The notes beneath the pieces were generated by a model. That model did no database searches. It was not told the origin of the DNA and worked only from the letters and a program-made list of their open reading frames with translations. The translations under genes and the position numbers were made by a program. From Tubulanus polymorphus (lineage: Eukaryota > Nemertea > Palaeonemertea > Tubulaniformes > Tubulanidae), in the NCBI RefSeq assembly GCF_964204645.1, contig NC_134031.1:15311307-15375306 (forward strand): DNA of 64,000 nt, written 5' to 3'. Position 1 is the stretch's first letter, and each line of letters begins with the position of its first letter. Below are positions 7,001-10,000 of this stretch, one piece after another.

Positions 7001-10000
7001 AGCGTTACCAGACGGCCATTTTTCCGACAGAGACTAGCGTATTTAAGCCAGGTTTTACGATCCTCCTGAGGACTGACGACTAACGATCGAACATGGATAA
7101 TTCTCTGCCAATCATCGACCACTTGTTGACAACCCTACAACGATTTAACATTTAATCTCTCATTCAGATAATCGCACTTCGTCCGAGATAATCGCTCTTT
7201 GCACGAGATAATCGCACTTTACACGAGATAATCGCACTTTCTACGAGATAATCGCACTTTGCACGAGATAATCCCACTCGTAGGAGATAATAGCACTTTG
7301 TACGAGATAATCTCAATCGCACTTTGTACTAGATAATCGCACTTTGTACTAGATAATCGCACTTTGTATGAGATAATCCTGTAAACTTACCTGTAATCTC
7401 TTCCACCACATTTCTTTTAGTTGATCGTGACGTTCTGGAACCAGTTTATATTGAATCACTTCTTCTAATTCCGATAACATTTGCACATTTACCATTGCCT
7501 ATTAATAAATCAGGTTGTCATTCTTAACTATTATTTTACATCTAACTGTAGTTTTACTATTTTTAAATTCATGCATCGCATTTCGTAAGCCAAAGAGCAT
7601 ATTTCATATGGAATTATGGCAATAAATAATCATTGTCAGTCCGTGTATGATCCCAGTCAGTGTAACAGACAAACAAAGATAATATTTACCCCGTAAGCTC
7701 TACTGTAACTCTCACCAGCCATTGCTGTTAACTCTGTATCGAGAATGTCTCTCGCTTTATCGATGCACTGTTGAGCTAATTCGTATTGTTGCATGTGTAT
7801 ATTGAGTACGGCTCGGTAGAACGCGCCGTCGTGCGTGTCTCTCGGTATTAAACACGTGTATTCCTCCATACTGTCCCACTGTCCTAAACCCCACGCGGCT
7901 GACGCGGCCATACGGGCCATCTTCTGTCTGGATTCATCGCTTACCACAGGCCACTTCTCACACGCCAATTCATGTAACTGACCCCTAAAATGTAGACACG
8001 CATACATAGACATACTAGAGTGTGAGTGGATGAGGGGAGGGAGGTTGAGGGGTTAACGTACCATTCTCCGAGGGCCTCTAAACACCTCATTCTTCCAAAC
8101 ATCAAATTCAAATCATCGGGATTCAGTTCTTGTTTTCGCTCGTATGAACTCAATGCATTCGACCATTCATGCAGTTTCTCGTACCAGGCTTCTTGTACTT
8201 TCTGTTAAATACATCGATATATACATCAGCTACTCGTTAAACTAACGCCACCTATACGTACTGCCATTAAATACTAACCAGATCAGCTCTATGATGAGTC
8301 ATAGCGTAATCTAAGACACCGGCTGCAGCTTCCGGCTGCTGTAACTTGTTATTGATGCTGAAGTAATTCAATACCGGGCAGTTAGAGATAAAGGGCTCCC
8401 ATAGTTACCTGATCAGTGCTCCCATAGATACCTGATCAGTGCTCCCATACCTGATCAGAGCTCCTATTGTTACCTGATCAGAGCTCCCATAGATACCTGA
8501 TCAGTGCTCCCATAGTTACCTGGTTAGAGCTCCCATAGATACCTGATCAGTGCTCCCATAGATACCTGATCAGAGCTCCTATTGTTACCTGATCAGAGCT
8601 CCCATAGTTACCTGATCAGTGCTCCCATAGTTACCTGGTTAGAGCTCCCATAGATACCTGATCAGTGCTCCCCTAGTTGCCTGATCAGAGTTCCCATAGT
8701 AACCTGATCAGTGCTCCCATAGTTACCTGGTTAGAGCTCCCATAGATACCTGATCAGTGCTCCCATAGATACCTGATCAGAGCTCCTATTGTTACCTGAT
8801 CAGAGCTCCCATAGTTACCTGATCAGTGCTCCCATAGATACCTGGTTAGAGCTCCCATAGATACCTGATCAGTGCTCCCCTAGTTGCCTGATCAGAGTTC
8901 CCATAGTAACCTGATCAGTGCTCCCATAGTTACCTGGTTAGAGCTCCCATAGATACCTGATCAGTGCTCCCATAGATACCTGATCAGAGCTCCTATTGTT
9001 ACCTGATCAGAGCTCCCATAGTTACCTGATCAGTGCTCCCATAGTTACCTGGTTAGAGCTCCCATAGATACCTGATCAGTGCTCCCCTAGTTGCCTGATC
9101 AGAGCTCCCATAGAAAGCTGATCTGAGCTCCCATAGTTACCTGATCAGTGCTCCCATAGTTTCCTGGTTAGAGCTCCCATAGATACCCGATCAGTGCTCC
9201 CCTAGTTGCCTGATCAGAGTTCCCATAGTTACCTGATCAGTGCTCCCATAAGTACCTGATCAGTGCTCCCATAGTTACCTGATCAGTGCTCCCATAGTTA
9301 CCTGATCAGTGCTCTCATAGTTACCTGATCAGTGCTCCCATAGTTACCTGATCAATGCTCCTAGTGTTTGTGTTGTTGGTCCAGATAAGAATTCCTCCTC
9401 TTTATAATGTAATGCTTTTGCATACGCCCGACAATTCATTGCCGTTTCACCCAATAATGTTGTATCCAATGGCAATGGACCCTATATTATAATAAAACAT
9501 ATAATAACGAGTTTCTAAACATAGCTTAACAATGGGTACTCAATGAGTACTCACTTTATCACAATGTTCCATAAATTCAGCGAGATTGAGTAAAGTTTGA
9601 GTAATTTCTGGTACGTCTTGTGAAGTTAAAGCTTGTTCTAAACTCTTAATTAATTCGTCTTGTTGAGTTTCATTCAATTCAGTCCAACACGAGACAAATG
9701 CAGCATTGAATAAATCACTAGAAATAGAAATATAAACCATCAGAGGAGGAGTTACTGGTGACTGATTGACAGGTGGGAGGAGTGACAACTGAATGATTGA
9801 CAGGAGTTACTGGTGACTGATTGACAGGTGGATGGAGTAACTGCTGACTGACAGCTGGGAAGTTACTGCCGACTGATTGAACAGTGGGAGGGGTTACTGC
9901 TGACTGATTGACAGGTGGGAGTAGTAACTGCCAACTGATTGAACAGTGGGAGGAGTTACTGCTGACTGATTGACAGGTGGGAGGAGTTACTGCCGACTGA

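Follow-up and report, generated by a model that had tools for sequence, protein, structure and literature searches.

The question raised by this locus is how the end of an exon is found when the sequence that marks it recurs dozens of times in the intron that follows. Intron 26 of an mTOR gene, on the minus strand of the window (the whole 64,000-nucleotide stretch of DNA analysed here, contig positions 15311307-15375306), carries a minisatellite, and a sequence-only reading had held that the repeated unit straddles the exon-intron junction, with the result that either the first donor always wins or the gene yields variable, NMD-prone transcripts. The array offers a natural test of the spliceosome's choice among dozens of near-equal donors in a conserved growth-control gene.

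The gene was modelled by spliced protein-to-DNA alignment of human mTOR with the minus strand of positions 1-19200, giving 50 exons and 2468 amino acids with no stops. Exon 26 ends at 9348 (gatcag/GTAACTAT, the slash marking a splice junction) and exon 27 starts at 8357. Their junction lies in phase 2 (ATC AG/C), and the joined protein reads through and parallels the human sequence. A phmmer search matched the exon 26/27 region to human mTOR chains in PDB (best E 2.9e-67), which bears out the earlier assignment of gene, exon and donor, the boundary being placed by protein alignment. Because the surrounding gene is well conserved with human mTOR, exon 26 itself is, to judge from sequence comparison, old. 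When all 49 introns are counted, including those beside poorly matching exons (e.g. exon 33, 11/37 identical), 32 are shorter than 200 nt, the median is 96 nt and the smallest is 69 nt. Around intron 26 the following features were located.

9348-9481, minus strand: mTOR exon 26 (134 nt), of which the final 14 nt (9361-9348, GGAGCATTGATCAG) form repeat copy 1 (spliced alignment, TRF)
8358-9347, minus strand: intron 26, 990 nt, phase 2, donor CAG/GTAACT, acceptor TTACTTCAG/CATC (spliced alignment)
8395-9361, minus strand: 23-nt minisatellite of 42 copies, the exon end counted as one (TRF, copy-by-copy reading)
8432-8474, minus strand: copies 39-41, with donors after 8474, 8451 and 8432 that would leave introns of 116, 93 and 74 nt (donor positions, intron lengths of the gene)
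8358-8394, minus strand: unique 37-nt 3' part of intron 26, containing the acceptor (gene model and TRF limits)
8279-8357, minus strand: mTOR exon 27 (spliced alignment)

TRF reported a single array with a period of 23 and 42.2 copies, beginning 14 nt inside exon 26 and ending 37 nt short of the acceptor. The unit therefore does straddle the exon-intron junction, as had been proposed; the proposed span of 8385-9361 was right at 9361, and the repeat stops at 8395 rather than 8385. The 42 copies consist of the exon end and 41 internal copies, one of which is 4 nt shorter than the rest (19 nt), and the internal copies differ from the exon-end copy at 1-8 of 23 bases. The last 14 exonic bases match the repeat unit at 13 places and the match across the junction extends to 27 of 28 bases, so the suggested kinship of exon end and repeat held up on alignment. 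Compared with the exon part of the commonest unit, the exon end has one silent difference (TTG in place of CTG, both leucine). By arithmetic, intron 26 would measure 51 nt without its internal copies, shorter than any of the 49 introns in the model. Searches of the assembly (267.8 Mb, 77 contigs) gave no second copy or haplotype of the locus among the matches listed, and no occurrence of the unit elsewhere among its 19 listed matches, all of which fall within the array.

Donor signals are abundant in the internal copies. GT is present at the donor place in 35 of 41, CAG/GTA in 32, the real donor's complete 9-mer CAG/GTAACT in 14 and CAG/GTATCT in 12. The sequence-only reading had counted about 40 decoy donors, a figure that agrees with the number of internal copies and is too high for GT donors, which six of the 41 are not. 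With a scoring matrix built on the 48 remaining mTOR donors, the real donor reaches 9.13 (75th percentile), and the donors of copies 39 and 41 reach 7.39 and 6.96. Against 95 donors of mTOR and the NF1 control gene described below, the real donor lies at the 64th percentile and CAG/GTATCT at the 17th. The 14 decoys with the real 9-mer have the same U1 pairing energy (-8.0) as the real site. The real donor is itself somewhat unusual, with a C at +5 that occurs in 3/95 other donors and a GTAACT that occurs in 0/95. At the other end of the intron the acceptor scores highest of the 89 AGs (5.60, the next 0.70) and is rather weak among 96 acceptors (12th percentile). To examine conservation of the decoys, unit columns were tabulated for 40 of the 41 internal copies, leaving out the copy with the 4-nt deletion. 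Among 14 unit types, +1 is changed in one and +2 in three, while -9 and +4 are changed in six each; +2 is thus exceeded only by -9 and +4 and equalled by -6 and -4, and most columns vary less. The donor GT of the copies is neither clearly protected nor clearly purged, though weak selection against the decoys is possible because +2 ranks among the more variable columns.

The consequence of choosing an inner donor differs from the original expectation of a frame that shifts with copy number. Reading past 9348 gives GALIR and a stop, and the inner donors read ATC AGG TAA. From the sequence, any inner donor would introduce an identical in-frame TAA two codons past ATC, whatever number of units is kept, which makes the frame of the remaining transcript irrelevant. 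The product would presumably be truncation or NMD rather than a frameshift alone, and mis-splicing would add little wrong protein because the stop is immediate. The array accordingly holds a built-in reporter, with the same stop for every wrong choice. The place where leakage would show is predicted to be copies 39, 40 and 41, which would leave introns of sizes usual in this gene.

Comparison of the copies with one another elaborated on the history of the array. The mean number of mismatches is lowest at a lag of 9 copies (1.67), followed by lags of 23 (1.79), 14 (2.07), 18 (2.17) and 5 (2.27), and stands at 3.56 for adjacent copies. This lag-9 higher-order pattern points to unequal exchange or segment duplication within the array, and together with the one 19-nt copy it would fit past rearrangement, as seen in one assembly. 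None of the 41 internal copies shares the T of copy 1 at its leucine codon, as might be expected of an array edge escaping homogenisation. The coding-compatible 13-mer GAGCACTGATCAG is present in 5/5 copies adjoining the exon and in 20/41 overall (hypergeometric p 0.02). This commonest exon-like 13-mer has the TTG/CTG change as its sole difference from the exon end, and exchange between the exon and neighbours of this type would be silent because both codons specify leucine; some other unit types would alter residues upon such exchange. The core of the unit, CTGATCAG, is a perfect palindrome, and RNA of the array is predicted to pair with itself very strongly (z -8.4 to -9.3 over three segments of 300 nt). 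In the same predictions, six other repeat introns gave z -4.0 to +1.4, and repeats of 60 shuffled units were never equally stable. The palindromic core and the stable repeat RNA may have helped the array to grow.

To evaluate whether the likeness of repeat and junction is peculiar to intron 26, the junction of each of the 49 mTOR introns was compared with the interior of its own intron, the other 48 junctions serving as the null. The intron's own 5' junction won in 7/49 cases, where about one is expected (binomial 6e-5). Intron 26 was the strongest, scoring 25.5 where the highest of the 48 other junctions reached 11.0, and because of this score the likeness of array and exon end is, on sequence grounds, judged not to be chance. 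It was followed by introns 12 (23.0 vs 9.0), 22 (15.0 vs 8.0) and 17 (12.5 vs 11.0), and introns 40, 1 and 25 were marginal (margins 0.5-1.5). At the 3' junctions 2/49 won (introns 4 and 42); both were strong, and their count is not above chance (binomial 0.26). With the exonic 20 nt alone, 4/49 won on the 5' side (12 and 26 clearly, 40 and 1 marginally) and 1/49 on the 3' side (intron 4). Tandem copies that include exonic bases occur in introns 12, 4 and 42, and donor-side copies with the last exonic G only in introns 22 and 17.

13972-14108, minus strand: intron 12, 53-nt unit over the 5' junction (exon 12 ends at 14087), two extra copies, one with GT at the donor place
12080-12352, minus strand: intron 17, 39-nt array whose unit contains the intron's own donor sequence G/GTCTGTATTAC; last exonic base only
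10381-10465, minus strand: intron 22, a single further copy of the donor side G/GTGAGTTGATAGATG lying 35 nt past the real donor; last exonic base only
16987-17035, minus strand: intron 4/exon 5, duplication of about 24 nt over the 3' splice junction (..ATAG/CAATGTTAC), with approximate limits
3744-3787, minus strand: intron 42/exon 43, 22-nt duplication over the 3' splice junction (..GATTGTAG/CATT)

The control gene, which we take to be NF1 (recognised by eye, with spliced alignment in support), was found in one of two 100-kb blocks picked without knowledge of their content. Of 55 introns modelled, 47 were used (introns 7, 8, 9, 15, 16, 51, 52 and 55 were dropped for weak flanking exons or a non-GT donor), and the comparison was limited to the 1000 nt adjoining each junction. 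NF1 gave 0/47 at 5' junctions and 2/47 at 3' junctions, one of them strong: intron 36 (block B, about 15880-16394) contains an imperfect 26-nt copy of its 3' splice junction. Junction repeats thus recur in this mTOR gene; in the comparison of these two genes, NF1 shows no 5' excess, and both have 3' cases. The genes differ in intron length (median 96 nt in mTOR, 468 nt in NF1), and mTOR is repeat-rich: tandem repeats make up 24% of positions 1-19000, compared with 2% over the remainder of the window and with 0.9% and 6.5% in the two blocks. The idea that donor-like sequence is general among the genome's repeats was rejected by a shuffle test of 39 units from the window and the two blocks (unit length 12-100 nt, 2.5 or more copies, overlapping rows thinned): mean p was 0.47 in block A (1 unit), 0.57 in block B (18) and 0.46 in the window (20), with p up to 0.10 in 5/39. 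Three AAGTAGGT in a row, an anagram control of three AGGTAAGT in a row, had 23 forward and 4 reverse matches genome-wide.

In our assessment the array is probably a splice-junction ('mirage') minisatellite that arose by slippage or unequal exchange, with copies that are tolerated because the outermost donor normally wins. A short stretch covering the last bases of exon 26 together with the adjoining 5' splice site would have been duplicated in tandem, by slippage or unequal exchange perhaps aided by the self-complementary core, and would have grown to 41 extra copies within an already existing intron. The outermost donor would be chosen through its proximity across the exon, and the array would be a tolerated by-product of slippage. 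Selection of the outermost donor is expected because exon 26 is short (134 nt) and lies between a 73-nt upstream and a 990-nt downstream intron. PMC9225289 describes exon-defined minigenes in transfected cells that carried two identical CAG/guaagu sites and spliced exclusively from the upstream site. The same paper reports that among near-equal human 5' site pairs upstream preference is heightened in the SL class, counted there as exon definition, which we take to mean that the upstream intron is short and the downstream one long. Between the two outcomes originally offered, architecture and precedent would therefore favour the first. Several observations weigh against a choice of the first donor. 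Short introns, which predominate in this gene, are presumably recognised by intron definition, under which the downstream donor would win; PMC9225289 does give the downstream donor as favoured in that mode. Fourteen decoys equal the real donor in 9-mer and pairing energy. RNA structure as what singles out the real donor was rejected, its predicted openness ranking 20/42, although it is predicted to be about 20 times more open than copies 2-4. Rules derived from human genes and cells may also not be valid in this species.

The closest known elements are the amphioxus 'mirage' minisatellites, which PMC3087553 and PMC3902484 describe from Adh3, the globins BflGb6 and BflGb9 and troponin C, with PGBD5 repeats compared to them. 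By its sequence the array would belong to this described kind rather than to a new type of element: its tandem unit spans the true boundary, as placed by protein alignment and gene model, and splice signals are kept in many of its copies. Undisturbed splicing and length instability, in germline or soma, also belong to the description of that class. The amphioxus examples comprise two BflGb6 haplotypes with 6 and 3 units of 150-160 bp, a 157-bp duplicate in BflGb9 and units of 10-72 bp in Adh3 (PMC3087553), whereas here 41 extra 23-nt copies occur in mTOR of an apparent protostome. Lancelet mirage copies could reportedly act as cryptic sites and give aberrant transcripts (PMC3087553), yet Adh3 data and globin RT-PCR are said to suggest that regular splicing is undisturbed (PMC3087553), and the Adh and TnC mirages are reported to generate no aberrant mRNAs (PMC3902484). 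Intron gain by AG/GT proto-splice duplication (Rogers; Venkatesh 1999; Zhuo 2007; Gao and Lynch 2009, all as cited in PMC3087553) is alike in its local tandem duplication of AG/GT-bearing sequence beside an exon. In that process both splice sites come from copies of one segment, whereas here the acceptor lies in the unique 37-nt tail, which makes this an expansion of an intron and not its creation. The competing-donor minigenes of PMC9225289 likewise set equal-strength donors against one acceptor; they have two donors 52 nt apart, and here 36 GT donors including the real one are spread over about 940 nt. In the minisatellite and splice-junction literature covered, mostly non-subscription, such elements came up in PMC3087553 and PMC3902484, both on lancelets, and we make no claim to a first report outside that group. 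Our results suggest that splice-junction minisatellites occur in animals beyond lancelets and may cluster in particular genes.

Several other explanations were weighed against that of a tolerated minisatellite. It is unlikely, though the most serious of these alternatives, that inner donors, chiefly those of copies 39-41, are used appreciably, yielding NMD-targeted mTOR mRNAs whose level lets array length lower or tune output. The 35 GT decoys, 14 of them equal to the real donor, would allow it, as would the usual intron sizes left by copies 39-41, the shared stop, and the downstream preference under intron definition given in PMC9225289. The upstream preference expected for a short exon between a short and a long intron (PMC9225289) argues otherwise, as do the weaker donors of copies 39 and 41, the lancelet precedents reported without aberrant mRNA (PMC3087553 and PMC3902484) and the lack of any clear sign of selection for retention or removal of the inner GTs. 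A bolder form of this idea, which we regard as a long shot, would make the array a brake on mTOR dosage. The decoys would load U1 and compete with the real donor, intron-proximal copies would give a 74-116-nt intron and an immediate-stop mRNA, the strong self-pairing of the repeat RNA would set the leak level, and unequal exchange between alleles would render the brake tunable, heritable and possibly somatically varying.

The remaining alternatives concern the copies themselves. If each were an AG/GT ratchet point, the intron could be removed stepwise, every step restoring an identical junction; most copies do read CTGATCAG/GT, with AG and GT juxtaposed and a branch-like CTGAT, and internal excision would be silent. 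However, recursive splicing along an array requires every copy to place a working 3' splice site directly against its 5' site, and by score none of the 42 junction places, exon end included, reaches the 5th percentile of the 96 mTOR and NF1 acceptors (best 0.70 vs 3.76), which leaves this reading very improbable. The exon could conversely have acquired its end from the repeat by array-to-exon conversion, which would explain the rare +5 C and GTAACT of the donor and the GA that stands for ES of human mTOR (LESLISINNKL in human, LGALISINNKL here). The T of copy 1, seen in no internal copy, speaks against such a conversion, and we think it quite doubtful. Finally, an ordinary intronic minisatellite might resemble the exon end by chance, given that intronic tandem repeats abound in this gene (a TRF row in 20/49 introns). 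With 27 of 28 bases matching across the junction, an own-junction score far above those of the 48 others and no 5' case in NF1, a coincidence of this sort is scarcely credible.

Other repeats and genes of the region were recorded as well. Intron 5 of mTOR (16196-16850) is filled by 82 copies of the 8-nt CTCTCCCT with 98% matches, which run from 10 nt past the donor to 32 nt short of the acceptor. Several long mTOR introns, 13, 17, 19, 24, 30 and 37 among them, are packed with differing tandem repeats. These begin about 8-30 nt after the donor and stop about 27-60 nt short of the acceptor, as though every dispensable part of the introns were open to repeat growth. A plus-strand open frame includes, at 33100-33130, a donor-like 12-nt unit in 2.6 copies, whose minus-strand reading is GGGGGCGTAAGT. 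Two long open frames in block B, at 55132-55698 and 90321-90780, consist largely of short repeats (SVSQ and ER/GE) and are probably non-coding. With regard to the affinity of the animal, a let-7 match in the genome (51.1 bits) falls just below the family cut-off of 53.5, a mir-10 family match about 500 nt away (52.7 bits) lies above its own, and mir-2 has 12 matches, seven above cut-off; 14 control genomes gave one mir-2 match, below cut-off, and none for let-7. To our knowledge mir-2 is protostome-specific, and the let-7/mir-10/mir-2 set indicates a bilaterian and a protostome. A sponge, initially suspected because the introns are short, was discarded on this microRNA evidence. Elsewhere in the window, positions 36435-54451 hold nine tandem minus-strand copies of an intronless gene of about 376 aa that, by eye, presumably encodes a rhodopsin-type receptor, one copy being split into two frames at about 49188-50253.
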